Below, one piece after another: positions 18,812 through 52,296 of a stretch of DNA of 64,000 nucleotides (its first letter is position 1; every line of letters begins with the position of its first letter). The stretch covers positions 1,123,915-1,187,914 of the forward strand of contig NC_049988.1 of the NCBI RefSeq assembly GCF_000003815.2. The letters are read 5' to 3'. The position numbers and the translations under genes are program-made. Below the pieces are notes generated by a model. The model had not been told where the DNA came from and searched no databases. It saw only the letters and a program-made list of their open reading frames with translations. This DNA comes from Branchiostoma floridae. Lineage: Eukaryota > Chordata > Leptocardii > Amphioxiformes > Branchiostomatidae.

Positions 18812-18956
18812 ACCTTCGGCTTCGCAACCTGATGAAACTGAATCTATCTTTTACTTCCTCAAGATATATTTTTGTTCCTAAGACGCTTTACGTTATTTTA
18901 ATGATAAATATACAAAGTAACCAAACGAAAGTTACAATCTGCTGTGCTATGTTCAG

Positions 18957-24049: not shown

Positions 24050-25938
24050 ATCAGTCCCTTTGAATTCTATGACGAACAATCAACCTCCTCTCAATCAATG
24101 GCGCAAACAAAGATGTTTTCTAGTGATAGATATGTTAAACAAATGTGGTCTAATGTGTCTGATCATATGAAATAGATGTAGCAAGCGATACCACGAGAAT
24201 TTTGAAACTTCTCCTTGTCAACTTGTCAATGATATAACATGTTATTAGTCCATTGACCAGAGGAGAAATCTGTACCTCCGGGCTGGCATATTCTCCATGT
24301 TATTTTTGAATAGTAGAAGGCTTGTGGTATATATTTTTATGTGATTGCCATTCTGATATAGTAGCTTTATACCGGCTATCAGCCTTCAAACCTATCACTA
24401 TCTAAATGATCCGGAAATTTCGTGTCTTAAACAATTAAGGGGGAGGGACATAAATCAAACATTAATATTTTTCAATGAAAATTAAATGGCTCATAGAATG
24501 TATATAAGGAGTGATAGTAGTTTGGTGCATTAGGGAGGCTCATTTTGTTTTGTTTCGTGTTTCCGTTTGTGTGTATCTATGAGTTCATGTTGAAAAATTC
24601 AAAAAAAGAAGGAACAAAATTAGAAAAAAATAAAATAGAATAAAACTTCTCATTGTTATCAAAACGTTTCATATCATTCGAAAATCTTTTTATAACGGCG
24701 CCCTTACAAAATTCAAAGTTATAATAGCAGTACAGAAATATTTCGACCCATGACTTCTCTCAAATCATTTTGATAGTGTGTTGACGAAATATTTACGATT
24801 GTCCATTACGATACTAGAATTTAGACAAATTGTAAATACCCGAATTGTGTACAATATTGACGTGCAATATTTTAAAGTGCAATATCAGTAATCCTCCATA
24901 ACTTTATTATGCTTTTAATCCTATTGTAACAACAGAGTTTCTCACTTTTATACAGTGTTGTAGTGCGGACGATAATTGTTAAACGTTCACCGCAATTCAG
25001 TCTTAGGACTGCAAGTGTGATGTTTTTATATGTGACCTTTTATGTCAAATAAACCATTCATTCATTCATAATGGATAACCTTTATGTCATCTCATGTACC
25101 AGGCTAATATAACATTAGAAAAAGATAAAATAAACAAGTACATTTCATCCGACTATTGCAATAGTAATTACATACATGTACGCGTAGAATTGATTTTGGG
25201 GTAAAGCAGATATTGTTTGTTTGTACTTAAATGTCAACTAGTTTTGACATTTTTTTTCAGCTGCCGTGCACTCCTTTTTACTTGTCAACATTACGTACTA
25301 CTGATGTCATAATCATTTTATTTACATGAACTTTCCACCAGACAATTTGTTGCGTGGGTGAGGAGTTCTCTTAGTCTAGGCTGGTTCCAGTATTCTGGTC
25401 TCCCTGTTACTGGACAGACGATGGCCACACAGGGAGGTATTCATATTGCAGTATCGTCTCCATCACCAGACGGACATGCAGGTATGTTTTTGTTTTGCTA
25501 AATTGTTTTAACTCTTATCCGGTCGTATGGGTCGTATCTAAGGACAAGCGTATATTCATATCTGCCATATCAATATTTTTTATCGGAGAAAATAATTTCC
25601 TTCTTTGAGTTTGTATACATGGACTTCTAACAAATGTTCACTGAGCTTAGCAAAATTGCTGTATAAGCTATACTGTACTTGAAAGTTCGTGCATTGTTCG
25701 GCGGGGTCCAAACCGTTGGACCACAGCAAATTATATCTATATATACTACCTTGTATCTAGAAATGTCACTTCAAAACAGGGATTCATTATCAATGCAATT
25801 AAAGCAACAGGGTATAGTTGCCAAAAAAAGGAAAATAACTTTGGGGAAAGAAATTCACTATTTTAGTGTAAAACGTGGTGCATTAATTATGATAATGAGC
25901 TATTAACCAATTATCTGTGCCTAGACAAGTGAAAATAT
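24050..25938 (+). repeat. Right arm of the large inverted duplication
   Basis: Reverse complement of 21088-22882, starting at CAGTCCCTTTGAATTCTATG and running through the first coding exon into intron 1. It includes about 1.37 kb upstream of the receptor ATG, so the promoter region of the lectin gene lies inside the duplication. Confidence 0.85.
25421..25481 (+). CDS. Lectin receptor exon 1 (start codon)
   Basis: Begins MATQGGIHIAVSSPS and ends GHA plus one base before GTATG. The start is supported by the conserved duplicate on the minus strand, where the ATG, frame and donor are kept. Phase 1 out. Confidence 0.75.
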
Positions 25939-28900
25939 TCCTAACCCTCTCTTATGAAATAACGTCAACATTTCTTTTCACAAATTGAAAAGACGAAATG
26001 ATTGTTGAAAAGCTGGAGCATTATAGAGTTTGAGGGGGGGGGGGCTGGCTTCTATCTCCTGGCCCCGTTTCGCCATAAAATATGATAATGAGCACCATAA
26101 CATATCACAGTGACAGCAAAACTGAAAATATTTTTCATAGATTGATGAAACTGTGTATACAAAGTAATGACAAAAAGAACCATAAGAAATATGTCTAAAT
26201 CTTTTTTTAAATCGACTTCCTTTTGGCAAACCACATTGTATACTATGTAGGTACTATTAGGTTTACCAAAATAAATACATACATAATTTTACCGAAATGT
26301 TACTATTTTCGACATCAAATGGTTAATTTCCAAAAATTAAAAAAAAACTCATTTTGTTGGACGTTGGTCTGTTAACTGTCCCATACCTTAAAAGCCAAAA
26401 CCCACAATAGTGAATGTAGTACCTTTTAGTTGATTGGAAAGTTTTTTCCGACATTTCTCTTTCACTTGAGTTTCACTTTCATACTGCGCATTAGACTTTT
26501 TGGTATTATTTTGGAAATAAGATCAAACAATTAAACATTATCCTTTTGTCGCAGGTATTGACAATACCGTACAATCATCGACTACCGACGAAAGTAACGA
26601 TACCCCTGACTGCCATGTCAACCACCACACCGAAAGGGATCACAACACCACCCTCCGGGAAATCCGTGCCTCAAAGAAAGGCGGTGATCCAGCAAATGAC
26701 ATGGAAGCAAGGGGCACGTTTACCGTAACTGTAGGCCGTAATGTCATTGGATTGGCTGCCAACACGATGTACAAGACTGGTTCAGCCCAGCAATCAGGAC
26801 ACAAAGGTATTGATGTCGTTTGTATTCTATTGGTATTGACATTGACATAGGTATTCTTGTCGTTTGTTTTCTATTTCCATGAGTATTGTTTTCGTTTTAC
26901 GTTTTATTGGCATTCATGTTGAAAGCTTTTGAGGTACCTCCACTTCTAAGTCCTGTAACTTTTAAATGCTGTAGACATGATATCTGACAATTGTAAGAAT
27001 TTTGACGCTATTATGTGGTGATATAAAGTAATTATGACGCGTCGACGCCATCATTTTGATTGTATTGGCTAGATTGGATTGGATTTTTGTCAAAAACGCC
27101 AGTGCGTACCAACACGAAAAACTGAATTTTTTCATACTTCTTGATATTGTTGCCAACAATGTCTAAGTAAAACGCACCAAATTTTGTGGCTCTAGCGTAT
27201 TCCGTTCTAGCGTTATACGATATGAAAGTTGGCGTAGGCCTCAAAAGCCAATAAATATCATTAACTACTAAAAAGGTATCATAATTACAAATAAGCAGTT
27301 TGTTTGACATGCGACCTTAACAGTATTACTAAGATGAAATTATGTTTGGGTTGAAAGAAATAGGCATTTTAAGCGAAAGGTAAGGTAAAGTGACCGATCT
27401 TTTTACAGAATATTATCTGACAAAGTATTTCTAATAAATGACATGAATCCCGCAGCTTGTAACTCGAATACAAACGAAGTCTATTCATATATTTTCTAAT
27501 CATTGGTATGGAACAACAGGGCACGTGTGCCAACACAATTATGTTTTTCGATGATTGCATCGGATTTTCCTTGCGACAAATTCATGATGTATTCTTTGAT
27601 ATTTTTTTCTTCAAATGAAGGGCGTGGCATAGATAGAACTTTATTGCATGACACCTGTACAGGATACAGTGTATGGCAACTTGAACATACAATACATACA
27701 TACAGAACAGTTTAACTACATGAGTTACTAGTATCTAAAAACGTAGGAAACTAATCTATTTTACACATGGTATATATTATTGACAATCAGGCTAGCATTA
27801 TGTGCTGGTTCATTACAGTATAATATTGTCTCGTTTTTTAAATGAGTTATATATAAATACATAGGCAGATATATCAGCAGGATATGATAGTAACATATTA
27901 AACATTTCTGTCTTATTAGGTGGTAACATTGTATCAGATTTGTATTTGATAGACTGTAACAATTCTTGTCTCTCTCTATCATAAGTTGGGCAATCCATTA
28001 TAAAGTGGGATTCATTTTCAATATTATCATGGCACGTTCGACAAAATCTCTCGCTGGCTGGTGTGTTGTGATGTCTACCCTTTTCGATATGTAGGGAGTG
28101 GGCACTAATTCTAAGTTTCGTAATGATATTTCTAAAAGATTTGTTTTGAACAGTTGAAAGGTAATTTTCAAGACAGAAATCTTTTTTGATTCTGCAATAG
28201 GTACTAAGTTTGCTTAGACTTCTTATTTCTTGTCTCCAGCCAGAGAGAAATGTATCTATCAGGCGGTATTTGAATAAATTTCCACGGTAGGGTTGAGCCA
28301 AACAGTTTGGAAGCTATGTCTACATAACATGTCTTGTACATGGACAGCCCAGTCTTGTTGTAGATGAACAGAAGTATTGTATGCTTTCTTTACGCGTCTG
28401 TCATTTGGGAGGCCATGTAATCTAAGCCAGTATTTTATCAACTGTGTTTGTGAATCAATGTATAGAGGAAAAACTCCTAGCTCGCCCCTGACCGCAGTGT
28501 TAATAGAGCTTTTGGGAACGCCGAGTGTGTCTTGATAATCATTATTATGTTTATTTTGAAAACTAATGGTACACGGGATATGACGTTCCAGTACTCTATG
28601 GAGATTTTTTAGCCCATAAACTAACAAAACAAGACCAAGGTGGCAAGGTAAAAACGTGCAAAAGTTGAAAATTTTAAGGTGGTAAACTTTGTGTTTACAC
28701 ATATTCGTGGATGCTACATCTGAGTACCGTAGCATCAAAAAGTTCTATGAACTAAGCACAAGCTGCAAATTATAAGCAGATAAAATAGGATTTTCAACGC
28801 AGCAAATTCTGGGCGGTTTGATATTGATTCCAGGTGTTGTTTACGACAAAAATGCCACAACCAAGCACAATCCTCCGATCTCTGATTGGTCGAAGATAGT

Positions 28901-31900
28901 GACACTCCATGTGGCCATCTTCTTGGAATTCTCTCTCAGTCATTCACTTCCATTCTAGCTGTAGCACAAGCAACAGCAAAGCTTGTCTTTCTTACGGTCT
29001 AGTCACAAAGACGATTTTCCACCTGACTGCCCCGTACCTCCGTGCCAAAATTCACACCTCTCCAAATAACTATTTGCCACCTCGGCCGATCATGCAATTT
29101 GTCAATACGGTCCTTGCATTATGGTCATTACAAGAAGCTATACCTAGTCTACCTTTAGTTTCGTTCAACTTCTACACCGTTTCTATCTTCTGCATTTAAA
29201 CGTTATAGATACTTTTATTGCGTTCATGAATGAAGCTTCCAATGTTTCTCGTTACTTTTTTTCTATCCGTACACCGTGTGCATCTATGACTTCTATACTG
29301 TAATTTTCATACTTGACTGCACAGAACTGACGGCAATGCCACAAGGTTGTTCCGGATGGAGCACGGAAGAGTTTGCATATTACTAAGGAATAACTGCTCG
29401 GATTTTATTTGATATCATAATAATAATGTGTAATGCATAATCATATATACCCCGAGTCTAGATAGGGTTAAGAAAACTTTCGGAAATAATGTCAGAATGT
29501 GAGTTTCAATTTGGTGAAATTGGCATATTGGGCTGACATTCCAGTTGGACCTCTACATAGGAAAGCATTATAAAATACACTAAAACAAGGCTTCAGAAAA
29601 GTACTAACCCCAATTTCAATCTTAACAAAAATTCTCCACCAGACAGCCACAAGGGTCATCTTTGTAAAAACTGAAAGAAAACAGAGGTTCAACCACCTCA
29701 AACTCCAAGGAATCCCCGCTCTATGAAAGAAACCTCACCTTTGACCCCAGTTTTCTCCTGATACCACCAATATGACACAACAACTAAAATCCTTCTGCGC
29801 GCCACCTAAACTGCTAAACTGAGCAAATTTTGACACAAATGGGAAAGATTAGACCTTACATGTTCCTTCTATCACAAAAAGGCTACTGGTTGGGCCAAAA
29901 TTTTCAAGGAAAAAGAAGATTTGAAAGGATTTTAAGTCACACCCAAACCGCGCAGCTCAACTGTGACGTCAGCCCTATTGGCGCATAACAAACCCATTGT
30001 TAACAAGAATGGATGTCATATTTAGTATGTTTTGCTACATAGACTCTATTGACTTGCGATATATTATTAATCCAGAAGACGGAACACCCGATGACTGCAA
30101 TAATGACCCTGAAAGCCACGTGCACAACAATTCCGACACAGATGACATCGACAGGCCACAGCAGCCTGCTGCAGACAGAGGGCAGAGAGCTGATAAACAG
30201 GAAAACACCACAGCATCAAACAATGTACAGAAGGACGACTCGGGCCTGCTGAACAACCCTACCTACGTGCCTGGCGCACTTCGACAAGATAACAACAAAG
30301 GTACATATAGTATTAGGGGTGGGTACCGGTACGGATTCCCGGTACAAAATAGTTAGGTCCTGGTTCAGATCCGGACCTGGACCTGATCCTCTGGACCTGG
30401 ACCGTACCTGGACCTAAATTATCTGTACCGGTACCCACCCCTAGTCCATGTAGATTTTAGAAGTTATTTTTCCTATGAGGGGGAGGAGGTACACTGTCCC
30501 ATGCCCTAATAGTACTCAATATAAATCTGTATCTGTATTATATTTTATATGACCCTGACCTCCCTCATGACCTCAATGAAAAGCGGCCTGCTGGCCGATT
30601 TGAGCTTCTCATGAATAAACAAAGGTTCAAACAAACAAACAAACAAACAAACCATGCACACCATTATCATGAGTAGCAGATAATCAGACAGGATGTTTTT
30701 GATTTGATTTGATTTATTCAGCTGTATAGAAAGAAATACAGCCAGGGCTACCCAACAGCCGGAGGCTGTTATCTAGGACTTACTGTCAACATAGTCTTTA
30801 AATGTGACCTGTCTAACAGTATGTTCCCCTCAATAAACCTCAACATTCCTAATCTAAACTGTACTCTAAACTATACTCTGCCATAGTGAAGAGGGTTAAC
30901 CAAAACCATACCCTGTGCAGTCAGCTTCATTGACATTTTTTCTTTGTGTGTTCACGAACCACTATCACTACTTTTGTTGGCAAATTACATTATATTGAAT
31001 TCATGAACGCCGAGGCAGTGGCATCTATGGCGTTCAGGATTCTCTCCATAAGTCTCAGTCTCTATGCTTTAACCATATTAATCATATAACCAGGTGGGTA
31101 TGGCTCACGTGGAACTCCATTAATTCAATTTTCAATTCAATCTTTATCGCGCAACAATTGTACAGGTACAACGCATGGCAAACAAATCAAGAGTAATACA
31201 TGTACAGAACACTTAGAATAATATCTAGTACTTATACACAATGATAAGGAGTTCTAGGTAACAAATGACTAATCGCTATGCCACTTTAGCTGAGTGGTTC
31301 AATTCATGGGAACAAGTATTACATAGTGATACAGAGTAACCATCAATTCTTTGTGTCCTTTTTAGAAAAGAAGGAGGTATGCATGGTCCTATGTAAACGA
31401 AAATTGCATCAGGACATGACATGGCATAAGTAAATTGAAGGTCTCTGAGCTTGTCTAAGGTTGGGCTATGTCTGTATTTGATAGTTGATAATGCCTTGAA
31501 GAACCAAGCTAAAAATAACTAACACTTTGTCAAATCACTGTTGTTGCCCTAAAATTTTTACTTCTGTGTTACTTACTTATCCTCTTCGTCCCATTAGTGG
31601 TATACGAGGGGCATTCAATAAGTAATCCACCTGACCCACTTCCAGTTGTCTGATCTAAATAAAATTTTGCATGTTTAATGAGTCATATCTCTATGGGTTA
31701 TGTTGCAAAAAACAGCCCTGAACTAATTGCGGTTACTGATTTACTGGTGTTTGAACTGAGTCAGGTGTGAAATGGACCAGGTGTGAAATGGAGCAAGTTG
31801 AGTGTCGCGCAGTGATCCGGTTTTTGTATTTGAAAGGACGCACACCAAAGGGGACTTTTGATGAAATGAAAAAAACTTATGGTGATGATGCCCCATCATA

Positions 31901-34900
31901 TGGCCTTGTAAAACGCTGGCATCCTGAATTCAAACAAGGCCGGAAGTCTGTGGAAACAGCTCCCAGACCTGGTCGTCCCTCTTCTGCCATTGATGAGGCA
32001 TCTGTCGGAGGACCAACCTGGGATGTCCTACAAGAACGGTGTCCAGAGCGGGTCAGGTGGATTACTTATTGAATGCCCCTCGTAAGGCAGCGATGAGTTC
32101 CTCCACTGTGGTCTGTTTTGTGCTAGGGTCTGAGCAGCATCCCAGGGGATCCCAATGGCCGCTAGGTCTTAAGCCACAGTACTAGTGCGCCTCCATGTAA
32201 CTTTGGGACGTTCCCGTTTCCTCTTCCGCTCAGGGGCCCAATGAAGAGCAACTTTGGGGATACGGTCATCCGACATCTGGAGAACACGGCCCAGCTATTT
32301 TAGTTGGTCTTCTGATGGCATTTTCAGCCGACAACTGTCTTGCGTTCGTTATTCTGTACAGTTCTCCATTACAGACTTTGTCTAGCCAGTAGATGTTACA
32401 AATTCTACGCTGACAACCATTGTTAAATACATCAATTTCTGCCTTTGTATAGGTAACTTCTGTGTTAATCATTGCATTTTCTTAGGTAAGACAGGGTGGT
32501 GGTTGACATGTTTCAGCTCCCGTCTAGTCCGCGGCATCATCATAGCTGTTTCTTTGGGATCCTTGGTTGCTTCGGGAGTTATAATCGGCATTTATGTCAC
32601 CAGTCTACTGGGGAACAAAGCAGACATCTATCCGGTCAGTCTCCTAAGTATTTAGCAACAGCTTAAACACCTTAATATGCGGTCTCTCTACATGACTACG
32701 ATTGGGTTTCCAGTATCTACACAAAAACTATTACAGAACAGCAGCCTGAAATACTAGCATTCAATTATGAAATTTTCTTCAAATGGGCGGCTGTAAGGTT
32801 GTGGATAGGAAAATTTCTGCGAAACAGACTTGATTACGATTTATCTGATTTTGAAATTTTGTAGGCTGATTTTCGTACTTTGACATGGTCAGTAAAATCA
32901 ATATTAAAACAATAGCTGATGTTACATATACAATGTTGAAAGGAAAACGTCGATAAGAACACCACAAATTTACAATTTTTTTCATACTTTCGAACTTTTC
33001 AGTCAGATACGAAAGAAATAAGAAGCCACAATGTTGAGTACGAACTCGCTTTAGAGTTTTCGTTTCGCATATCACTCTCTGTTTCTAATAATGTCACTCG
33101 TATTTCCTTATGAATTTGACCCCTATAGCGATATTTTTTTCACATAGCTCCATACAAACCAGATTTCTACAACCGACTCATCTTGGGGGGCAACTGGTGA
33201 TGATCGTAAAGCAACGTCTACACTGACAAAGATGACATCCACCCTGCCGCCCGTGACACCCACAACAAAGGTGACAGCGACACTAACAGCCTTGACAACC
33301 ACAATGTCATCCGTGACAACCACAATGCCAGGAGAGACAACCAAAATACCAGCAGTTACAACCACTGTGCCAGCCGTGATAACCACACTACCAGCGGTGA
33401 CAACCACACTACCAGCTGTGACAACCACACTACCAGCGGTAACAACCACACTACCAGCGGTGACAACCACACTGTCAGGAGTGACAACCAAAATACCAGC
33501 AGTTACAACCACTGTGCCAGCCGTGACAAACACACTGCCAGTTGCGACAACCATACCGCTAGAAGTGACTTCGAAACTGCCGGATATGACAACGACATAC
33601 AAAAAGGTAACAAGAATGTCCTACATTCGAAGCGTTCACATGGAAATGTACAATTTTAACTTGTTTTGTTTGTCCTATTTTGAAATACCTTGACTTTATT
33701 ATGTTTTTACAAAATTCAATGTCTTTGAACCATTTCTCATTTCTTGATTGAGATTTAATGTGATTTTTTTCAAAGAAATACATTAATTTAAGATAAGCGT
33801 GATACAGTTTTTTCTTATTACTCTAGTATCTGTTACTTACGACAAGTGTGACGCGACGGAGAAAGTATCTTGAGACTACGAAGCAAGAGACGTCAACATA
33901 CATGAAAGGTAAACACTGCTTTGGCTTTTGGACATTTCTTCACTTCGGTCACATTATCAACCAATGAATAAGAGAAATGCTAAGTAATGTATTTGTTACC
34001 ATTGCTAGATATCTTTATTGTCCGGTTTATGGTAATATATTTGTTTCAGAAATACATGACCCATATACGTGACGCTTTATCTAAATTCACGTCACATGGG
34101 ACGTAAAATACGTGACGTCCGATGTATTACAGAAACGTCACACTTACGTGTGGCATACGTAACGTATCTTTATCAATAACTTAGTTAACGATTGAGTAGG
34201 ACGTGACTTATGTCCACGTCCCACTTTGTAAAACGTACGTGACGTGTTTTGACAGATCCTTGTTTAATTCACGTCACGTGTGCCACAAAGTACGTGGCGT
34301 CTATGGCAATATATTTGTCGCTATATACGTGACGTTTTTCCTAATTCACGTCACATGGGACGTAAAATACGTAACGTCCGACCTATTCCAAACACGTCAC
34401 AGGCTACGTGCAAGATACGTGACGTCTTTTTATCAATAACTTAGTTAAGATTTAGTGACTGATGACTGTCTTTGTAGTATGTGTGTGACGTGTTTTAACA
34501 GATCCGTGTTTAATTTACGCCACGTGTTACACAAAGTACGTGACGTCTTTTACACGTCACGTCCGGTTCGACATACCAAAACACGTCACACGTTCCTTAA
34601 TGCGTGACATAAGCTATCGCCTAAATGACCCTGTTGCAAACTCCAAATCCTCGCAAACTAGATTTTAACCCGGGCGGAGAGATAGGGTTAAAAATATCCG
34701 CGCAAAATAGTACCATTTCCACTTCATTCACGTCACAAATGACATAAAGTAGTCGTCATTTTTTTACTAACACGTCACGATTCATGGTATCACAGGTGAC
34801 TATCTTCTATATACGTACGACTTTCTTGTTTCGATGTACATATCAGCGATTTTGTTTAGCACCTTTTTGACATGGGATGCTCTTAATACGTTTGTGCCCC

Positions 34901-37900: not shown

Positions 37901-40900
37901 CTGATTGCTAGCACAGAAATTGAGCTTTAAGTGAAAAATGTTACTAGTATTAGTTAACATCACATGTTTTCACATTTCCCCCAAACGGTCTGGAAAAATC
38001 ACATTTTAGAATATATTTCAATTATGTAAATTTCACTTTCTCAATGTAGTTTTTAACCTTTAATTGTACTGTGTTTTATAGGCCAAAGGCCTGATACAAA
38101 TAAATAAATAAATAGATAAATAAATAAATAAAAAACATGTTATCTAAATGTGACATTGGCTGTGCACCCATTATGTGAAATAATGTGACTGCCCGTACCA
38201 CAGGTATGGTTAAATATATTGCATTCGTAATGTTTCTTCTTCTTTCTGTTTCTCCTGTCCAATCTTCAAAGCGCTTCATCTCCGTCGTTTCTGGACCGAA
38301 TGATTTGAAACAGAGTGGTCTAATACCTCCTGGCATTTTTTCTCTCATTTTTTTCATATCTGCCTTTAAAACTGTATATTTTGGCCACCTGTACCCTGAT
38401 ATTACAACCGAATGACCTGGTACAGAGGTGCCTTGATCATGTCCATTCAGATTCAATAACACTTTTGGCATACAGTACAACAAAATGCTCAATTTGCAAT
38501 TTTGGCAGTTTTTTTACAAAGAAAGTACATTTTTGGCTCCTAAACCCTGGTTTGACATTCAAATGACCTGAAATTTGGTATAAGAGTGCCCTGGACATGT
38601 TCGCACATGGATTCAATAACACTAGTCACAGTATCAACAAAATGCTTAATTTTGCGATTTTTTGCCCATTTTTTTTACCAAAAAATGACATTTTTGGCTC
38701 CTGTACCCTGGTACCTAAATTCTGGTAAAGGGGTGCACTAGATATTGATCCAAATGACCCATCTTCAATTTTTGGCATGTACCACTTCAAAATGATTTAG
38801 TTGGGGATTTTTGGGTCATTTTCAAATTGGCCAGAGGTCAACGACCTTCTCTTTCAGGTGCTTGGCCTCGACATGTCTATAATATAACTTAATCAAAGGC
38901 AGCCAATGATCTAGCCTGAATCAAAAACCTGAAAAGGATTCGGCAGCCAATCAGCGAGGCTGGTGTAATCTGGAAGAATCGATTTATGCACGGGAGACTT
39001 TTTAAAGAATTCAATTTTGGACTGGGTTGCTTATACAAAAGGCTATAATTTCAGTGGGAGTATTTCTGGACTGGTCTATTTTGCAAGTAAAATGGGGTGC
39101 GCTGTAAGATTTGATTCTTGCACGGAAGGGGCATTTTTTAAAATTCATTTTTGGACTTGGGTGATTATGTCAAAGTCCTATTTTAGCAGAAGTTTTTTTA
39201 ACATAGGGATATCACAGGGAGTATTATTGCACGGAGGGGGAATTTTTTTCAAATTCATTTTTGGACGGGTGATGATTCAAAATTCCATTTTTTAGCGGAA
39301 GTGTTTTTGGACTGGTCTATTTTACCTTTTTTGGGCTAAATTGTGTTTAGTAGAAGTCATTTTTAAGAAGAAGTGCTTCATTTTCGCACATGGGTGATTT
39401 TGGAACAGTCTATTGTTGCATGGGGAGGGAGATGGCTGAAATATGCTGTATTTTCTCTCTAACAAATGTCGGCCTTTCTAATGTTCGTTTATTCTGCTTG
39501 ACCCGGCGTAAAGAAAAACATCCGAAACATCGCAGTTATTTACTTTCCACTACGGCTCATTTGCAGGGAAAGGCAACCTGGCTATTGGTAAGACAGCAAC
39601 CCAGAGTTCCGACTTTGTTCACCTGGGGGAAGCCTTGGGTGCCGGAAAGGCTGTTGATGGTTCCAGAGCGACGGACATTAAGCCAGGAAAAGCGTGTACT
39701 CACACCGAAAATGAGTATCAACCATGGTGGAAGGTGGATTTGTCACGTACCTACACAATAAAGCAGATCAGCATTCTAAACAGGGGCGACTGCTGTGGTA
39801 AGTCTTATCTTATTCCACGCAATAATGGTGGATTTCTACAGAACTACATTATTGTAATTATCATAAACGGATTTGAGAAGCTTAAACGAGTTTGAGAAGC
39901 AGTTCAAATTTCGAAGAGCACTGGGCACAGATAAATTTTCACGACTTTGTCAATAAGATGACGTTGATGTTGATTTGATAGGAATTTAAACCATGTGAGA
40001 ATAAGTAAATACCTCTACGGAGGTTTAGTGTGCTTTTAAAATGCTAGGATAAATACTTATTCAGCTTGCTCTTGAAAGACGCAAATGGGTTACATTTTGT
40101 AGATTTTTTGGTGTTATTGTTATGTTATTGTGTGGGCCGACTACTCTCTCTTCACAGCCAGGGGTTGAATTGCGAGGAGCTTACAATAGGCGCGGGGGTA
40201 AATCGCAAGGGTTTTAACGTCTTATCCGAGGACGGCCCTAACCTAAGCTAGGTACTCATTTTCACCTGAGTGAAGTGAGGAAAGTCGTGTTAAGTGCCTC
40301 TCCCAAGGGCACAACATCAGAACAAATCAGCGGTTTCGAACCCGTTACGTCTTGGGTCTGGGTCAAATACGTTACCGATTGCGCCACACGATGCCGAAAG
40401 ATGTCGAAAGATGTAATTACATTCTATGAATGTTTGTATTTGAAGGAGAACGATTGAAGAACTTCATGGTGCGCGTCGGCCCGAATGAGGACTTTGCCCA
40501 GAATGATCAGTGCGGAGAGATGTACACGGGCACACCAGAGGATGGGCAGACTATCGTGGTGTACTGCAGCCCGCCGATACCCGGCCGTTATGTATCCGTA
40601 CAGCTGATGGGACGGGAAGACAACTTGTCACTGTGCGAAGTGGAGGTCTATGCTGAGACAGGTCAGAAACACTTTATTTTCAAATATGACATGTTTATCA
40701 GCATGAAAGCTCATCTGTGTTGCGTTGGTATAATCCATATTGAAGTTTTGGAACTGTCATCTGACATGTGACCGGAGACCGGGAGAGCTGAAATCTTATC
40801 TAATCATTAACCCACGTATGTAGCCTTCAAACATCACGTGCATGTGCGTGATACTGAATCTGTCACGTGGAAAACCTTGCCTTGGAGGCAGGCTCTTCTA

Positions 40901-43900
40901 CGGGCGTGCTGTTCTGTGGTTGCTACTGTGAACAGTTGCGACTGATATAGTTTTCCTTTTCGTCAACATTGATAGTATCAGGGAAAACTGAAACCATCAC
41001 AACATGCTAAAGATATGAATCATTAACGTCATCATTAGAAAAATGCCCGTAATTAAATCTGCTATTGGGGCAATAAACATCGTACGACGATGGAGAAACT
41101 TTGAACATATTCAAAATCCATTCCAGCTCTATTTTTGGCATACTCGTAGGAGGCTCCTCGACTTTCTATGATTTGCCTACGATTGCGCTGGTACGCTCTT
41201 ATGACATCACCGTACGATGTGCTAAGACCTTTGTGACCACGGCGTTATAACGTTATATTTAAACTATTGCGCCCGATTGTTCCCCTACTTACGACGTACT
41301 GCGTACTGCGTAAATCGCAGTAAATCGTACGCGCTTGTGACAGGGTCTTCAACCTTTATTCATCTTTTTCAGGAACGTGTGGACTATCAGCGTTTCGCCA
41401 CGTCCCCCGGACTGATTGTTACGGTTCAGACATATCCCGTGTCACTGGTGTTACCCTCCAGGACTGTGCGGAGGCGTGCTGTGCCGACTCGACATGCCTG
41501 TCGTTTCAGTACAACATAGGCATTGAATGCTATGTGAAAAGCAGGCTCTGCTCAGATGAGGAGAAAGTGTCTCTATCTTCTGGAAACATGTACGATCGGA
41601 TTCATCTACCAGGTTGGAGCATTTTGTTCATCTATCAAGTACATCATGTATCAAACTGTGGAATTCAACAGCAGAAGTGGGTATTGGTCTTTGAGATACA
41701 ATTTCTTTACAAAATCATTTGTTATGCCTATGTGATCTTGTACCACGGAAATGCAAACTTCCTACCCAACGAAAGAAGGTCTTTTATGCCTTATTTGTGG
41801 CATCGTCGACGCTTTTTTCGTGTAAATTTCATCGTTTATAGCCCAAGCCTTGTTTTGCGTGACAAACGTGAAACGAATCAAACACAAACATGACAATAGC
41901 CCTCAATATCGGGACGATTGCACAGGTAACGATGCGTTACTACTATGCAAAGTCTATTGACTTTGTAGACCCCCCTTCCCCTTCTCCTTTTAGAGTTTAC
42001 ATATTAACCCTATTCAGACCTGTTTTTTTTTGTGGTCACCCCTGGACGAGGGGAAGGGGGGCTTTTGAGGTCCTCCACTTCTAAGTCATATAACTCTTAA
42101 ACGACGTGTCGTATGGCCACCAAATTTTCAGGACATGATGTAGACATAATAATGACAAGTATAAGACGTTTGAGGCTACGCCGACGTAATATGACGTAAT
42201 TATGACGTCATCAATTTGATTATATTGGCCAGACCCATGAAAAAAGGGTTGTCTCCGAAAACTTCAACTTATACTACAAAAATGTAACAGCAAGTACATA
42301 TAACAAAATCATGCCAAAAGCAATATATCAATGACGTCAAAATGACGTCAAAAATGGACGTAAATCACATCTAAGATCATACCAGTTGGGCTCCGCCATA
42401 TCATATCCAACACGTTGAAATTTCAAACATCCTTTTTTTAGAAAAAATAAAGTTTAACGTCCATTATTGCGTTTTGTCTCCAGCATGCCACAATGGTTAC
42501 CAAATACATAACAACATCTGCTACAAGGCCTTCAACATGCAGATGACTTTTCTCGACGCGTCTTGGACCTGTCGTACTGAGGGTGGGAGCCTCGCTATGC
42601 CAAAGGACGCCGGCACAGACGACTTCCTGGTCTCCCTGAAGAAAGATGTGGATGAGAGAGGCCGTTTCCGGTTCGGTTTGGCGGATCGGCGTCAAGAGGG
42701 AGTCTGGGAGTGGGTAGATGGCACCCCACTTGGAGGCTACAGCGCATGGATGCCAGGGGAACCCAACAACGACAACGATGAGGATTGCGTCCTTTATTAT
42801 GACCGAAAGACGAATGACGGAAAGACATGGAATGACGACAAATGTTCATCAGCAAAGAAATTCATCTGTGAAGTTAAACTACCAGGTGTGTTTTCCTTTA
42901 ATTTGAGCATTCACTCAAAATAAAATTATGTATCATTAATATTTCATCATTCAATATTATCTGTTGCCAATTGTAAATATCTTTTTAAAAGTAGAAGCTT
43001 ACAGGCCACACATATGATTTCCGTGTCTCTCATGATCACCCATGCAACAAAAAGCTGTTCACAAATCAAATCATTAATTGTATAACTCAGACAAATTTGA
43101 TTTTCCAAACGCCTATGAAAGGCGAGACACTGACTGATATGGAAATATAACCAAAAAGCCTATCAGCACAATCAATATGAAAATATCGTATTGTAATATG
43201 AATTTTATACTTAAGCTACTTTACTTAAAGGTTAACATTACAATGATTAAACACCAGATGAGTATAACCTGGCATTTTCGAATTCATTTTTCGATATGAT
43301 ATGCAGTTTGAGAAAAAAAAGACTATTAGTGTAAAAATGCTAAGACGAACTCATTTATATCATGAATATTTTGGGGGTGTTCATCTGAATTTCCTACTTG
43401 TCACTTTTAAATCAATTCTGAAGTGACATATATACATTTACTACATATTTCCAGTCTTCAGCCTTAGGTATTCCCCACCTAACGTTACCTAAGGCCACAG
43501 CAAGTAAATTTTATGGATGACATCCTCTGCAGACTGCAAAAATAGTGCGATAGGGCGAAAAAAAACAAGATGGGTGAAAAAAAACAAGATGGCTACATTT
43601 TCAAAAATAGACACCATAAAGTTGTGAAGAATGTTGTAACAAGAATTAAAGGGACAAAACATGGTATCAGAGCCAACAAGGCATTCATACCTGTATTCAA
43701 GACATGTACTGGTGTGGTAAAAGTGACACTAGTGTGGTAGACTGGCATCATGAACAAAGTTGGTAACCACACTCATGGATTCCATATTGATGTCACTTTT
43801 ACAACTATCCAATAAGTTTCATTTCTACAACTTCAGCCCTGGGTACCTCGCAAGTGTCACTTCTACAAGTACAATTATTAGGCTACGATACAACATATTT

Positions 43901-46900
43901 GCTCATTTTGGTACCTTATCGTCATGTTGACCATCCCTGCAGAAGAACAAAATTCTTGTTTTTTTTTCTGAAATCAGGCGAAAATTAATGCGCGCGCTGA
44001 TGTCATCCATAAAATTTACTTGATGTGGCCTAATGTGATATTACTATGCATAGATCACGGGAAAGTAATTTGAATAAAATCTACAAATGTTGAAATGATA
44101 ATGGTAGTATAACGTCTTGACACGCGCATTGTAGGAGAGTATCCTCCTTTCCAAGTCAAAGCAAAGATATATAAGATGAAATTTATTCTTTCTACCCTGT
44201 TTTAGCTCCTATGATTGACAACTGCCAAGTCGGATACAAACTCCTAGCCAGGACCTGCATCCGGATTTATTTCAGGGAAGTGGGCCACAAAGATGCCAGG
44301 AAGATCTGTGAGACGGATGGGGCTACACTAGCCATGCCTAAAACAGAAGAGTTGGATCAGGCTTTGAGAAGCTTTGTCCACAAGGAAGGCCACAACGCCC
44401 AGTTTTGGATCGGCTTGAGGAACAAACCATTGATTTTTCATAAGCTATCTAAGAGACACTGGATTTGGGAAGATGGGTCTACATTGGGCTACTACAAAGT
44501 ACGTTGTTCAAGACATGCCTCGCTTTCACCTAACAGAAACAGATTCAAATATACATTTTATGTCATTGTTGAGCTAGAAAAGTTATAAAACTCCCAATGG
44601 GGTAAAGGAATATTACAAAACTACTAATATAGGACATTTGATTCGATTTATTTCTTTTCTCTTTGTACGATCTACCCAATGATATCAAGTTTGAAAAGTT
44701 ACGAAGTGTTTGAAATTTTTGTGCACTACCCACTAATTTGAGACAGCTATATTGACCTTGAATTTTGACAGACAAATAACAACCTTTAATAGAAAAGTAT
44801 GTTAGATTATAGAAATAGAACTACAAAACTAACTAGAAAGGCCGGCATTTGCTTGGGTGCAAATACAGCATATTTCAGCCATACCCATTCCCACGCAACA
44901 TTGGACTGTTCCAAGTCACCCCTGCGCAAAAATGCAATATTTTAATGTAAGTTATCCCCAAAAGAGAACTAATATTGTGAATTGATTCCATGTCAAAAAA
45001 GAGCTTGCCCAATATGCCCCGGGCCCATATGGGAGAATATAATCTTCCACAGGAGCGCCTATGCATAACTGATTGGTTTTTAGAATTGCGGCAGCTCTTT
45101 TTTTTTCCGAGAGTGAAAAAAAAACGCATCTTCCATTTAGAAGATTTTCGTCATGAAATTACATGACTCCATTCAACAATTTCCACTTCGATAACTTGGT
45201 CTAAGTACCGTCATAATCTCCTTGTGATGTGAGTACATTTATTATTGCAGTGAACTTTTTTTAAGCAAGTAGGGCATACGTTTTAATAATTGTCAGGTGC
45301 AGGTACTGTGTAGTAGGAGTGTTGTTGTTTTTTTCAAGCTAAAAACTTCAATCTTCTTCTTGTTTTTTATGAGCCATTACATAAACGGAGACGTCTCGAA
45401 ATTGTACAAGAATTTTACCACTCTGTCGCTTAATTTCTTTTCTGAAAGATCCCAGGACCAACAAGTTGATTTTGCTTTATCTATATATTTCATTTTCCTT
45501 CGAATTTTTTGTTAAGTAAATGCCCCTGCATACCACTGTTAAATTGTTTTACTTTGTATGCAATCCGCTGAGCCATCGGACGTAATCTTGTCTGAGTGTT
45601 ATAATTTCCTGCTCGTAGCGTGCGAGACCTGGAGGATAGGTGTTTCTACTTTGTTCGGGGATTTCTTTTCGGAGGTCAGTGGTGATACTCTGGTACTGAG
45701 AGTGTTTTATTGGGCTCAAACTCTGGCAGTTTAAAGTTACTTACAATTTTAATGTACAAAGTTTACTTCAAAAAAGAACAACAACAACACTAGAAGTACC
45801 TACATTTGTTCGGGAAAAATACATGCATTCTCGCCACTGTCAAACTTACGTATCAAAACTAAACGCAAGCCGTCCAATTTTCCCTGTCCAAATCTGCTAA
45901 AAATGATTGATAGTGCCGTGCGGAATGTTGGTAAATTCATCGACACTAACGTTCAATGCACGCGTACCGTCCGCTACCGCTCAAATGACCCTGTCTGAAC
46001 TCCAAATCCTCGCAAACTACAATTCAAACCGGGCACAGGGTACCATATGGCCACTGTAAGGCTGTAATATGCATCTGTTTGTGTATATACGGGATTGCAA
46101 GGCCCCGCTTATGAATATTAATTAGCATTCGCCTTTCTCGTCGCTGATTGGCTGGCGTACATAAAGTAATTATCTCTCGCTCTCCCCAGACCGCTGGCAC
46201 CTGGCACGTGTGGGCTCTGGGGTCACTGGAGTTCACAGCAGGAAGCCAAAAGAAAACCAATTTCCCCTCAGAAAAGCGCTGAAATTAAGCATTTTAAAGT
46301 AGTTTATGCCCAAAATTTTACTTTGATCATTTTACCAACTATCTAATGCCTATTTACACCGAATTTAAGGTCATTCCATTGTAATTCAAGGGAACAGGGG
46401 CCCACAATATACCGTTTTGGTCAAAACATGACCTTTAAACTTCAATAGAATCATTTTAGAGGCAGATATGAAAAAAATGATAGAACTGCACCTTGGTATT
46501 GACCCAACCTACCCTTGTGCCAAATTTCAGGTTATTCGGTCACGGAACGACGGAGATGAATCGCGGGGAAGATTTGACCGGAGAAAGAAAGAAAGAAAGA
46601 AGCATTACCAATACCATATATTTCACCATACCATATATGGCATGGCTGAAATATAATAACAGAGATGGTAATATTTTGGAAAATCTTATTTTGAAATTTT
46701 GCTTCCCCATACCCCAACCATTTCTGAACAGTTGTACCATTATGCTTCAACAGGGATGGAATCCAGCAGAGCCAGATGACAGCAGATGGACCCATTTTAG
46801 GAACCTATGCGTGACGTACCGGTCATGTCGCCCTGGTTATCCCATGTGGGGTGATACTTGCTGTCATTTCCGGCACGGGTTTATCTGTCAAGCACCTCTG

Positions 46901-46912
46901 ACATACACTTGA
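25421..46912 (+). CDS. Type II membrane receptor: CTLD / F-type lectin / PAN / CTLD / CTLD, 14 exons
   Basis: Exons: 25421-25481, 26555-26806, 30076-30300, 32486-32634, 33148-33606, 33827-33908, 34906-35111, 35652-35820, 39567-39797, 40446-40661, 41373-41612, 42484-42885, 44206-44498, 46754-46912. They sum to 3144 nt, 1047 residues plus TGA, with every splice phase agreeing. Order: acidic, Asn/Asp-rich cytoplasmic tail (1-195) with N165-P-T-Y168; one transmembrane helix (about 196-221); Thr/Pro mucin-like stalk (230-409); CTLD1 (410-534); F-type lectin (535-683); PAN/apple (684-763); CTLD2 (764-897); CTLD3 (898-1047). There is no signal peptide, so the protein is type II with lectins outside. 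NPxY motifs recruit clathrin adaptors, so endocytic glycan recognition is inferred. I know of no named orthologue; the exon chain is my reading, not transcript-proven. Confidence 0.82.
26555..26806 (+). CDS. Lectin receptor exon 2, cytoplasmic
   Basis: Acceptor GTCGCAG, donor AAAG|GTATTG, phase 1 to 1. Encodes residues 21-104: polar, with DTPDCHVNHHTERDHN and an ANTMYKTG segment that resembles a degenerate NPxY. No catalytic domain. Confidence 0.7.
26920..27240. repeat. Dispersed repeat, copy related to 42055-42260
   Basis: GCTTTTGAGGTACCTCCACT, TAATTATGACG and ATCATTTTGATTGTATTGGC-type blocks recur in the same order near 42060-42235. Unclassified; no terminal repeats found. Confidence 0.5.
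27813..28738 (-). pseudogene. LINE ORF2 C-terminal region, frameshifted, in lectin intron 2
   Basis: Two overlapping minus-strand frames belong together. The upstream one has GVPKSSINTAVRGELGVFPL and YWLRLHGLPNDRRVKKAYN. The downstream one has KLRISAHSLHIEKGRHHN and a Cys/His cluster FCRTCHDNIENESHFIMDCP. They overlap by about 40 bases near 28260-28300, so a frameshift separates them. This arrangement, with a basic K-L-R-x-x-x-H segment then a C-x2-C-x8-H-x4-C knuckle, is typical of the end of LINE ORF2 proteins. No reverse transcriptase core is present: a 5'-truncated, inactive copy. Confidence 0.75.
30076..30300 (+). CDS. Lectin receptor exon 3, cytoplasmic with NPTY
   Basis: Acceptor ATCCAG, donor AAAG|GTACAT, phase 1 to 1. 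Encodes residues 105-179: strongly acidic/Asn-rich, ending SGLLNNPTYVPGALRQDNNK. NPTY (165-168) fits the NPxY internalisation / PTB-binding consensus. Confidence 0.8.
30314..30443. repeat. Palindromic MITE, TAGGGGTGGGTACCGGTA family, copy 1
   Basis: Starts TTAGGGGTGGGTACCGGTAC and ends GTACCGGTACCCACCCCTAG, with GGACCTGGACCTG repeats inside. It sits 14 bases after the exon 3 donor. Relatives are at 49544-50004 and 53204-53646. Confidence 0.8.
30700..31600. repeat. Old LINE/SINE 3' remnants in lectin intron 3
   Basis: The block near 30700-30790 (GATTTGATTTGATTTATTCA then ACAGCCAGGGCTACCCAACA) and the one near 31130-31400 (TTTATCGCGCAACAATTGTA) read like inverted 3' ends of non-LTR elements. 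The second shares wording (TGTACAG, GCATGGCAA) with sequence after the LINE end near 27640-27680. No protein remains. Confidence 0.4.
31605..32082 (+). mobile_element. Internally deleted mariner-like element
   Basis: Perfect 33 bp terminal inverted repeats at 31605-31637 and 32050-32082 (starting CGAGGGGCATTCAATAAGTA) are flanked by TA on both sides (31603-31604 and 32083-32084), the Tc1/mariner target duplication. The element is only 478 bp. It lies inside a LINE remnant in lectin intron 3. Confidence 0.9.
31767..32072 (+). pseudogene. Mariner transposase N-terminus, catalytic domain deleted
   Basis: The frame keeps the DNA-binding region: VECRAVIRFLYLKGRTPKGT, then GDDAPSYGLVKRWHPEF and KQGRKSVETAPRPGRPSS, which match the first helix-turn-helix and the GRPR-like linker of mariner transposases. 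It stops being transposase after about 80 residues and then reads straight into the right terminal repeat. The DDD/DDE catalytic region is absent, so it cannot transpose by itself, though it could in principle still bind terminal repeats. Confidence 0.85.
32486..32634 (+). CDS. Lectin receptor exon 4, transmembrane
   Basis: Acceptor TTCTTAG, donor CCG|GTCAGT, phase 1 to 0. Residues 180-229. GIIIAVSLGSLVASGVIIGI then YVTSLL forms one helix (196-221), preceded by SSRLVR, so positive charges lie on the cytoplasmic N-terminal side. Confidence 0.85.
33148..33606 (+). CDS. Lectin receptor exon 5, mucin-like stalk with tandem repeats
   Basis: Acceptor CACATAG, donor AAAAAG|GTAACA, phase 0 to 0, residues 230-382. 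After a short linker it is a tandem array of a 7-residue unit, mostly TTLPAVT or TTVPAVT, encoded by 21 bp repeats (about 33290-33560). Dense Thr with Pro predicts O-glycosylation and an extended stalk holding the lectin domains off the membrane. Confidence 0.85.
33827..33908 (+). CDS. Lectin receptor exon 6, distal stalk
   Basis: Acceptor CTCTAG, donor AAAG|GTAAAC, phase 0 to 1. Encodes YLLLTTSVTRRRKYLETTKQ, then ETSTYMK. The least certain exon of the chain, but its phases are what is needed to join the stalk to the CTLD. Confidence 0.6.
34026..34800. repeat. Tandem repeat rich in ACGTGACGT / ACGTCAC motifs
   Basis: A unit of about 255 bp beginning near 34048 is repeated near 34303 and partly again near 34480. 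Each holds many (T)ACGTGACGT and CACGTCAC words and the shared block TATCAATAACTTAGTTAA. An inverted partial copy lies at 37262-37600, on the other side of the CTLD1 exons. Confidence 0.75.
34906..35111 (+). CDS. Lectin receptor exon 7, CTLD1 first half
   Basis: Acceptor CCAACAG, donor ACA|GTGAGT, phase 1 to 0, residues 410-478. Contains AAAQTCAADGGRLAVVKS and TDYWIGL, the classic CTLD helix-1 cysteine and WIGL core. Confidence 0.9.
35652..35820 (+). CDS. Lectin receptor exon 8, CTLD1 second half
   Basis: Acceptor TGTAAAG, donor ATAG|GTACTT, phase 0 to 1, residues 479-534. GGWTWSDGTAV, NWAPGEPNN and KWDDTRC are the CTLD landmarks. E500-P-N502 and W519-D-D521 form the calcium-site-2 set usually linked with mannose-type sugars, though the usual WND is WDD here. 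Confidence 0.9.
35940..36043. repeat. Compound microsatellite (GT)n(GA)n(GAGT)n
   Basis: GT, then GA, then GTGA runs in sequence, in lectin intron 8. Confidence 0.9.
36458..36612. repeat. Three-copy tandem repeat, about 60 bp
   Basis: ATCACGACAGTTTGTCCGAC / TTACGATATT-type units occur three times with divergence, in lectin intron 8. Another two-copy repeat (GTCGTTCCCATTG..CGGACGGGGGT) follows at 36917-37013. Confidence 0.6.
37262..37600. repeat. Inverted copy of the ACGTGACGT repeat
   Basis: Reverse-complement match to 34030-34260, including TTAACTAAGTTATCGATA and AAACAAATATATTGCCATAT. Confidence 0.75.
37661..37745. repeat. Dispersed repeat, copy also at 40766-40850
   Basis: GACCGGGAGAGCTGAGATCT and CCTTCAAACATCACGTG are shared in the same order with 40766-40850. 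Both copies lie in introns of the lectin gene. Confidence 0.65.
38200..38380. repeat. Dispersed repeat, inverted relative at 46370-46640
   Basis: CTTCATCTCCGTCGTTTCTG with a TTCTTTCTGTTTCTCC run here is the inverse of AACGACGGAGATGAATCGCG with a GAAAGAAAGAAAG run near 46540-46600. Its ends are undefined. Confidence 0.5.
38386..38830. repeat. Tandem repeat, about 155-160 bp unit
   Basis: The sentence-like unit TTTTTGGCTCCTGTACCCTG followed by AAATGACC and AACAAAATGCT recurs about 2.7 times. A second degenerate array (TTTTTGGACTGG, AAATTCATTT) follows at 39010-39310. Confidence 0.55.
39567..39797 (+). CDS. Lectin receptor exon 9, F-type lectin first part
   Basis: Acceptor TTTGCAG, donor TGTG|GTAAGT, phase 1 to 1, residues 535-611. 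NLAIGKTATQSS is the usual start of an F-type (fucolectin/F5/8-like) domain. H580 is followed by exactly 26 residues, then R607-G-D609-C-C611, that is most of the fucose-binding signature H-x26-R-x-D-x4-R, with the adjacent Cys pair. Confidence 0.93.
40131..40397 (-). mobile_element. tRNA-derived SINE
   Basis: On the minus strand the head reads TGGCGCAATCGGTAACG (A-box-like) and then GGGTTCGAAACC (a B-box match) about 40 bases on. The body has CTTGGGAGAGGCACTTAACA and CACTTCACTCAGGTGAAAAT then GAGTACCTAG, which resembles the conserved central domain of widespread deuterostome SINEs. It lies in the intron that splits the F-type lectin domain. Confidence 0.65.
40446..40661 (+). CDS. Lectin receptor exon 10, F-type lectin second part
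   Basis: Acceptor TTTGAAG, donor GACAG|GTCAGA, phase 1 to 1, residues 612-683. Begins GERLKNFMVRVGP, supplying R614, the last residue of the fucose-binding motif, and ends GRYVSVQLMGREDNLSLCEV, the conserved closing strands. Confidence 0.93.
41373..41612 (+). CDS. Lectin receptor exon 11, PAN/apple domain
   Basis: Acceptor CTTTTTCAG, donor CCAG|GTTGGA, phase 1 to 1, residues 684-763. DCYGSDISRVTGVTLQDCA, then EACCADSTCLSFQYN and CYVKSRLCS with a final GNMYDRI, is a PAN/apple pattern (cysteine pairs round the L-x-x-C-A-x-x-C-C helix). One exon, one domain. PAN modules bind protein or carbohydrate. Confidence 0.88.
42055..42260. repeat. Dispersed repeat, relative of 26920-27240
   Basis: GCTTTTGAGGTCCTCCACTT, AATTATGACGTCATCAATTT and GATTATATTGGCCAGA correspond in order to the copy in intron 2. 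Confidence 0.5.
42484..42885 (+). CDS. Lectin receptor exon 12, CTLD2 complete in one exon
   Basis: Acceptor GTCTCCAG, donor CCAG|GTGTGT, phase 1 to 1, residues 764-897. A long-form CTLD: extra N-terminal Cys pair (CHNGY..ICYKAF), SLAMPKD, VWEWVDGTPLG, E856-P-N858 and W879-N-D881, so calcium site 2 is fully kept with mannose-type residues. WIGL is replaced by RFGL. Unlike CTLD1 and CTLD3 it is not split by an intron. Confidence 0.93.
43492..44031. repeat. MITE, TGGATGACAT family, copy C
   Basis: AGGCCACAGCAAGTAAATTT then TATGGATGACATC at the left is inverted at the right as GATGTCATCCATAAAATTTA and CTTGATGTGGCCT. It lies in the intron before the last CTLD. Confidence 0.75.
44206..44498 (+). 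CDS. Lectin receptor exon 13, CTLD3 first part
   Basis: Acceptor TGTTTTAG, donor CAAA|GTACGT, phase 1 to 0, residues 898-995. DNCQVGYKLLARTCIR, KICETDGATLAMPK, FWIGL and HWIWEDGSTLGYYK are CTLD landmarks. Confidence 0.9.
46754..46912 (+). CDS. Lectin receptor exon 14, CTLD3 end and stop
   Basis: Acceptor TTCAACAG, phase 0 in, TGA at 46910-46912, residues 996-1047. GWNPAEPDDSRWTHFRNLC, then MWGDTCCHFRHGFICQ closes the CTLD. The triad positions read E1001-P-D1003 and W1027-G-D1029, neither EPN/QPD nor WND, so sugar binding may be changed or lost. Confidence 0.9.
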   Translation, partial: GWNPAEPDDSRWTHFRNLCVTYRSCRPGYPMWGDTCCHFRHGFICQAPLTYT

Positions 46913-47239
46913 GTTGTCAGCAAAAAGCCAACATGACCAGAAAACATACCGGCGAGTTCTTCATTTTTGTTGTGGTAGTAAGACAAAACAACTTTTCAGA
47001 GTCTGTCCGAAGACTCAATTTTCTATTCTGAAAACTTTCATACTACATGTAAATAATACTAGTATTCTAATACACATTCCAAGCAGCGAAGAATAGGAGT
47101 TTTGAAACCCGACGGGAACCCCAGTTCAACTTGCAAGCGAACACTTTAATATATTTGAAAATGAATTTACAATGTAAAAGGCTTCACAGAATAGAAGCGA
47201 CAATGTAAAAACACACATGTCATAGGTAAAAAGAGTACA

Positions 47240-48215: not shown

Positions 48216-48340
48216 ATAGTGGACCAAACTGGGTCAATTATTATGAAATATTTAGACTAGCATTGCCACCATATTACACACTAGTGTACCTCCACTCACT
48301 CATTTATGCAAATGCACTACTATATTATAACGCATTTACA

Positions 48341-51480: not shown

Positions 51481-51516
51481 GGCTGAGAGTGGAGTAGGCT
51501 GCAGTAATTACACACT

Positions 51517-52280: not shown

Positions 52281-52296
52281 CTCTTACTGATTACAG

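Follow-up and report, generated by a model that had tools for sequence, protein, structure and literature searches.

A 64-kb window of the Branchiostoma floridae genome (64,000 nucleotides, C10:1123915-1187914) contains what is probably a single gene that encodes a type II transmembrane lectin receptor, in which five modules for binding sugars or proteins appear to be carried on a mucin-like stalk. The gene appears to belong to a modular lancelet family and to have obtained its F-type lectin domain (FTLD) from a cassette whose left edge is the left terminus of a CACTA-type transposon family. The segment around this fucose-lectin module starts precisely at the end of a transposon. As judged from paralogs in the searched genome (513 Mb in 431 contigs, here called C1, C2 and so on), the receptor family is common in tail and transmembrane (TM) helix and variable in its ectodomain by whole modules, and these relatives suggest that the receptor grew by exon shuffling. 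What we observed directly is the anatomy of the gene, its paralogs, the edges of the cassette and the transposon ends.

Fourteen exons between 25421 and 46912 on the plus strand join into 3144 nt, or 1047 codons and a stop, with 0 internal stops (Table 1). All 13 introns have GT/AG borders. A sequence-only reading of the window had proposed these 14 exons, joined in frame without phase conflict, and every one of them was found where that reading had put it, in one frame of 1047 codons. CTLD1, the FTLD, PAN and CTLD2 all have outer phases 1-1, and CTLD3 is entered in phase 1. Splice sites were scored with a generic matrix and ranked against the GT or AG dinucleotides that occur in the region; 16 of 26 rank in the top 5%. 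Lowest-ranked are the acceptor of exon 10 (top 15%) and the donors of exons 8 (13%), 2 (11%) and 11 (10%), followed by the acceptors of exons 3, 8 and 6 (each 9%). At exon 10 the acceptor is AAG in the window versus CAG in five of five sibling FTLD copies read, so the FTLD could be skipped without loss of frame.

Table 1. Exons of the receptor gene model and features of the surrounding introns (window coordinates)
Feature	Position	Strand	Length (nt)	Remarks
Exon 1, start codon and N-terminal tail	25421..25481	+	61	phase 0-1; kept on C12
Exon 2, cytoplasmic tail	26555..26806	+	252	phase 1-1; protein 98% identical on C12
Exon 3, cytoplasmic tail containing DDSGLLNNPTYV	30076..30300	+	225	phase 1-1
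Exon 4, transmembrane helix	32486..32634	+	149	phase 1-0; hydropathy peak, residue 197
Exon 5, Thr/Ser-rich stalk, 21-bp tandem repeat as basis	33148..33606	+	459	phase 0-0
Exon 6, linker	33827..33908	+	82	phase 0-1
Exon 7, first half of CTLD1	34906..35111	+	206	phase 1-0
Exon 8, second half of CTLD1, EPN and WDD	35652..35820	+	169	phase 0-1; AAG acceptor
Host-intron sequence left of FTLD segment	37617..37736	.		homologous to 10721-10842 of joined C12 stretch
FTLD exon cassette, 3.0 kb	37741..40761	+		same DNA, whole or part, at C7, C18, C3
Transposon left terminus (CACTACAAGGTGC...)	37741..37814	+		transposon-end comparison
Exon 9, first half of FTLD	39567..39797	+	231	phase 1-1
Exon 10, second half of FTLD	40446..40661	+	216	phase 1-1; AAG acceptor
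Host-intron sequence resumed	40768..41250	.		C12 10768-11250; first ~75 bp repeat about 37664-37736
Dispersed stretch around PAN exon	41254..41811	+		genome comparison
Exon 11, PAN domain	41373..41612	+	240	phase 1-1
Exon 12, CTLD2, EPN and WND	42484..42885	+	402	phase 1-1
Exon 13, first half of CTLD3	44206..44498	+	293	phase 1-0
Exon 14, second half of CTLD3, EPD and WGD, stop	46754..46912	+	159	Pfam and motifs

The gene presumably starts at 25421, and the same ATG exon is kept on C12. We rejected the idea that exon 1 is repeat debris: its inverted copy is identical at 57 of 61 positions and the exon is also kept on C12. That copy, at 21760-21695 on the minus strand, belongs to a large inverted duplication (21447-22873 against 24051-25743) in which the promoter region and exon 1 are copied head to head. 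A protein search of the 64-kb window found no other exons of the receptor gene on the inverted-duplication side. Intron 3 holds a fragment of a Mos1-type transposase HTH (31755-32072; HTH_48 2.7e-8), and a 34-bp tandem repeat of about 30 copies stands directly after the stop codon (47224-48216). Further downstream are an open frame with NHL repeats (52281-53114; Pfam NHL 1e-15), perhaps from a TRIM/NHL-type gene, and a long minus-strand open frame (62635-63705) that by eye resembles a piece of a non-LTR reverse transcriptase.

The domain kinds that had been named from the sequence, C-type lectin, F5/8 or F-type lectin and PAN_1, were all matched in the 1047-residue product. Pfam gave Lectin_C three times (E 8e-54) and, both over the FTLD, F5_F8_type_C_2 (2.5e-19) and F5_F8_type_C (8e-15). 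PAN_1 reached 2.3e-4 and 21.4 bits in the whole protein, exactly the curated cut-off of 21.4; exon 11 alone scored 1.6e-6 and 28.3 bits against the same cut-off, and the C12 copy 29.9 bits. The AlphaFold model of the PAN domain has low confidence (pLDDT 60.5). The solved structures closest to the FTLD are the fucolectins FBP32 of striped bass (3e-48) and eel agglutinin 1k12 (3e-26). In the alignment with 1k12 both THT and NRGDCCGERL are matched, and NRGDCC.ERL aligns also with domain 1 of 3cqo. The FTLD carries the His, Arg, vicinal Cys pair and Arg that we take to be the fucose-site motif as in eel agglutinin, and this fucolectin-type motif upholds its earlier description as an F-type lectin. 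Structure matches to CTLD2 and CTLD1 are the mannose receptor, DC-SIGN (CD209), the PLA2 receptor and langerin, with the mannose receptor at the top for CTLD2 and the PLA2 receptor for CTLD1. The first two CTLDs have EPN, together with WDD in CTLD1 and WND in CTLD2; CTLD3 has EPD and WGD, which makes it doubtful that this domain binds sugar.

By hydropathy the protein has a type II layout, with an N-terminal tail that has no signal peptide, followed by one TM. There is a single peak above 2 (2.48, at residue 197), which is the TM, and the runner-up of 1.37 lies in the stalk. The stalk is 152 residues long and 41% Ser+Thr. In the cytoplasmic tail, DDSGLL adjoins NPTY. The NPTY tail had been pointed out before, and the motif is present in five of six tail exons compared, including those of the window and of a distant C18 copy; the sixth, on C15, reads NPPTY.

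A genome search with the TM exon gave matches at 8 loci (one on C10, two on C12, one on C15 and four on C18), and downstream DNA was read at seven of them, including three of the four on C18. All the way from exon 1 to the stop, C12:15800001-15830000 runs colinear with the window, and aligned pieces are 80-98% identical. All 10 mapped exons (1-6 and 11-14) are in order with intact splice sites, and the exon length differences from the window, 3, 84, 6, 15 and 6, are all multiples of 3. Exon 14 on C12 runs in open frame to the same APLTYT stop, an end read from the frame and not from the aligner. Between C12 and the window dN/dS is 0.47 over 607 codons with the stalk excluded; per exon it goes from 0.28 in CTLD2 up to 1.67 in the TM exon, which has only 11 changes, and the stalk stands at 0.92. 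At three C18 loci, which were scanned for the model's domains, CTLD3 is the sole one of these downstream of the TM, with the same split point and then a stop, and is 46-68% identical per exon to that of the window. The stalk is recognisable at one of these three loci. On C15 and in the minus-strand C12 copy, tail, TM and stalk are followed by pieces of a different CTLD, less than 1 kb from the stalk on C15 and about 12 kb beyond it on C12.

The C12 colinearity, together with the C18 loci where tail and TM are followed by CTLD3, indicates a single gene for the tail and the last CTLD. These paralogs speak against a split between the two, in agreement with the single type II membrane gene of the sequence-only reading; CTLD1 and the FTLD would be spliced into the same mRNA. 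Because CTLD3 is the only model domain after the TM at three C18 loci, it is probably the oldest lectin part of the receptor, and comparison of the loci makes the simple tail-TM-CTLD3 form the likely ancestor. A neighbouring gene has a minus-strand CTLD exon at 51300-51650, and since the same neighbour is also present 3' of the C12 copy, a segmental duplication seems to have taken it along.

Outside the membrane, the paralogs differ by whole modules. The ectodomain runs CTLD1, FTLD, PAN, CTLD2, CTLD3 in the window, and PAN, an extra CTLD, two CTLD2 copies and CTLD3 on C12, where CTLD1 and the FTLD are absent. This variation, with the 1-1 phases of the modules, agrees with the earlier view that phase-1 symmetry favours shuffling. 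The extra CTLD lies at 13792-14037 and 14339-14565 of the joined C12 stretch (Lectin_C 3e-15). As the parent of CTLD1 it was rejected, its second half sharing about 36% identity with that domain. The C12 copy also has a tandem duplication of CTLD2, at 17599-18884 of the joined stretch (L025-L027).

The PAN exon is dispersed, with 109 matches in the genome, 18 of which, besides the window's own, are at 70% or more over nearly the whole exon; no stops occur among the matches listed. DNA around the PAN copies on C8, C3, C16 and C12 matches the window to 41811 at 86-87%, starting at 41254, 41304 or 41316, and in five pairs compared the surroundings match mutually over about 700-820 bases. Splice sites of the PAN exon are intact in five of five copies, the window included, and pairwise dN/dS is 0.43-0.94. 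The C12 exon is nearer to the C3 and C16 copies than to that of the window, and simple descent with the rest of the gene therefore does not fit. At C4:6609545-6642918, PAN exon matches are densely packed on the minus strand, many of them at a spacing of about 1.5 kb, and may represent a PAN-repeat gene.

Homology of the intron to C12 ends at 37736 and restarts at 40768, and about 75 bases of host sequence (C12 10768-10842) are present on both sides of the cassette in between. The copy of the cassette from C7:23426069 onward has both edges, with main pieces at 86-96%. On C18 there is the left edge, 131 bases, and then 38807-40746 at 90-95%; the C3 copy is partial (39462-40746 at 91-94%). C7, C18 and C3 share sequence past the window's right edge, which makes this edge the window's own. 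Near FTLD exon pairs occur at at least 8 loci besides the window (C18, four on C7, C3, C14 and C5) among the best 150 of 477 FTLD candidates; the CTLD comparison likewise drew on the best 150 of 1565. The FTLD exons of five sibling loci, read out of these at least 8, are 85-96% identical to the window's. Against the C18, C7 and C3 copies the FTLD has a dS of 0.077-0.086, about double the 3.2-4.2% heterozygosity reported for amphioxus genomes (PMC12500494), and a dN/dS versus siblings of 0.61-0.69, a weak constraint. Close to the FTLD copy there is a kringle frame on C18 and an EGF frame on C3, each of them beyond the limits of the CACTA-type element, and an F5/8 frame on C7. On C14 the order is CTLD, FTLD, F5/8, where the F5/8 call is by 63% identity to the C7 frame. 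With the FTLD before F5/8 on both C7 and C14, this is a possible native home, and the transfer to C10 may be plain segmental duplication. The CTLD1 stretch is itself flanked by ACGTGACGT-rich repeats, direct and inverted, at 34025-34613 and 37336-37611, and similar ones are in the C12 intron.

The left edge of the cassette reads CACTACAAGGTGCAT in the window and on C18 and has two changes at C7, with unrelated DNA on its left. At C18 and C3 an inverted copy of this left end stands beyond the FTLD. The best 40 of 59 candidate ends in the genome, scored, listed and paired by hand, form at least 10 convergent pairs, 7-18 kb apart. Two pairs enclose FTLD exons 94-96% identical, C18:7768809-7775970 and C3:1025575-1039227. 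The 3-bp flanks are identical at five of six non-FTLD elements tested (TAG, AGG, AAA in an A run, ATT and TTA) and differ at the C19 element (TAT/AAT). Of the two FTLD elements, that on C18 has ACC/ACC, and that on C3, with a damaged right terminus, GCG versus GTG. Inverted termini starting CACTA, with 3-bp target repeats at five of six, place this family of ends with the CACTA type. The element C1:32660343-32678571 holds Transposase_21 (tnp2), which we take to be the CACTA transposase domain, in two pieces, one with a TGA. None of 28 genome matches to Transposase_21 fell in the other nine elements, so that it is found in one of eight non-FTLD and neither of two FTLD elements. A Helitron as the mover was rejected, since there is no TC start at C18 or C7 and the 3-bp target repeats fit CACTA.

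The left end is upstream of the FTLD at at least six of nine loci (the window, C18, C3 and three on C7), at a distance of 0.8-10.5 kb. In the window cassette we found a left terminus only, at 37741, and no right terminus; as the siblings also share sequence past the right edge, a standard cut-and-paste insertion is not shown. The CACTA family may have captured the complete phase 1-1 FTLD exon pair and may move it as cargo into introns, and the receptor may have gained its FTLD in this way. We give this close to an even chance. The gain would be recent, as the FTLD dS to the copies is about 0.08.

Chimeric gene models are described as common in lancelets, and a Lectin_C and fn2 fusion among them was refuted by ESTs (PMC4967905). 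It is conceivable that our joining of exons has likewise fused two or more neighbouring genes, such as tail-TM-stalk-CTLD1 and FTLD-PAN-CTLD2-CTLD3, which would be parted by intron 8 of 3.7 kb. On C12, however, PAN, CTLD2 and the same terminal CTLD3 come after the tail, TM and stalk exons, and at three C18 loci a CTLD3 stands downstream of tail and TM exons. A separate gene further along, with a signal peptide of its own near 38206, was rejected, because the signal-peptide-like frame near 38206-38310 falls in a stretch that recurs antisense at 46.5 kb. Between 35820 and 38098 the only AATAAA or ATTAAA is an ATTAAA at 37170, and AATAAA appears from 38099 in an AAAT repeat. We consider a fusion of neighbouring genes quite improbable. 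A skipped-exon explanation, in which CTLD1, the FTLD or both are intronic passengers left out of most transcripts and the working receptor is tail-TM-stalk-PAN-CTLD2-CTLD3, agrees with the phases (skipping either keeps the frame), with a C12 copy that has neither, with the AAG acceptors of exons 8 and 10 and with the dN/dS of the FTLD. The four exons concerned are nevertheless intact, without stops and with their lectin motifs preserved, and we find it unlikely that they are mere passengers.

How the FTLD came to the gene is less settled. The cassette could have been placed by ordinary segmental duplication or break repair, with the transposon end an old sequence carried along. Such a route is consistent with the missing right terminus in the window, with the host sequence of about 75 bp flanking both sides, and with C7, where the left terminus is upstream of the FTLD and F5/8 comes after it. 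Against it, the copied segment begins exactly at the terminus, and the two elements with both ends, on C18 and C3, hold FTLD exons between them. We regard this route as a substantial possibility that falls somewhat below even.

The preferred reading of one receptor gene leads to the following proposal for its growth. An old core of NPTY tail, TM helix, mucin-like stalk and terminal CTLD is likely common to other genes of the genome. In the C10/C12 lineage, PAN and CTLD2 would have been inserted as phase 1-1 modules between the stalk and the terminal CTLD. In the window copy, CTLD1 and the FTLD would have been added in one intron of a C12-type gene, the FTLD arriving as a 3-kb cassette that starts at the left terminus of the CACTA-type family. 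We infer the direction, gain of modules rather than loss, as well as the mechanism by which the cassette was integrated. F-type lectins bind fucose and EPN-type CTLDs bind mannose-type sugars. Held out on a stalk that would be O-glycosylated, the FTLD would bind fucosylated glycans of microbes or food particles, and CTLD1 and CTLD2 mannose-type ones. NPxY tails recruit clathrin or PTB adaptors, and the NPTY tail could serve adaptor-mediated uptake. By analogy with what is known of these families, and with NPTY kept in most of the tail exons compared, an endocytic or phagocytic glycan receptor is favoured.

The receptor shares an N-terminal tail, a single TM, a stalk and EPN CTLDs with type II C-type lectin receptors such as DC-SIGN, langerin and the CLEC4 group. 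The neck of those receptors is a coiled-coil; the present one differs in its mucin-like neck, its NPTY tail and its three CTLDs combined with an FTLD and PAN. Several CTLDs in one endocytic-type receptor also recall the macrophage mannose receptor family, which is type I, with cysteine-rich and FN2 domains and eight to ten CTLDs. Membership in that family was rejected, as Pfam matched no cysteine-rich or FN2 domain and the TM is N-terminal. On the transposon side, plant CACTA/EnSpm elements carry gene cargo. The present family resembles them in CACTA termini, 3-bp target repeats, Transposase_21 (in one element) and host exons between the ends; unlike them, it resides in an animal genome, and the window copy has a left terminus only. 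Bishnoi is said to have treated the FTLD proteins of B. floridae in 2015 and may list the protein of this window.

FTLD, CTLD and TM are already known in one protein, and a fucolectin with two CTLDs is known in lancelet ApeC proteins. ApeC proteins of clade I have a fucolectin, 2 CTLDs, CUB and ApeC, and most of the clade is subject to presence-absence variation (PMC12373286). The receptor is like them in uniting an FTLD with CTLDs in one lancelet defence-type protein. Unlike them it has no CUB or ApeC by Pfam, and its TM, stalk and PAN go unmentioned for ApeC proteins in the available part of that source (PMC12373286). Drosophila furrowed and CG9095 combine FTLD, CTLD, CCP and TM (PMC5712786), thus differing from the receptor by CCP repeats in place of PAN; in CG9095 the CTLD reportedly does not have the canonical sugar-binding residues (PMC5712786). 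Among the open-licence PMC papers listed we found no description of the five-module architecture or of FTLD exons inside a transposon. The combination may be new, of a known kind. The sequence-only reading knew it from no named protein, which holds in so far as the literature did not show the architecture; the receptor is, however, one member of a family and not an isolated chimera, and related combinations are in print. Another shuffled lancelet receptor, FrLRR, binds bacteria and promotes phagocytosis; for that gene, the route by way of a transposon was excluded by its authors, who described a fusion transcript arising from read-through (PMC10199209).

Exon shuffling is said to go faster in lancelets than in other animals, and transposons are suspected of a part in it (PMC4284660); the opposing view is that apparent novelty comes from gene-prediction errors (PMC4967905). 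At the coordinates named here this dispute becomes testable. One receptor family is laid out in one genome, from single-CTLD copies up to a five-module ectodomain, and its FTLD module is precisely bounded, has close copies at other places and borders on a transposon end. Each lectin module of the receptor lends itself to a separate assay. Of greater value are the growth of the ectodomain, as dissected here, and the transposon-bordered FTLD cassette. If it is true that the CACTA family moves the FTLD as cargo, the gene would offer a traceable example of an animal immune-type receptor built by exon shuffling through a transposon.
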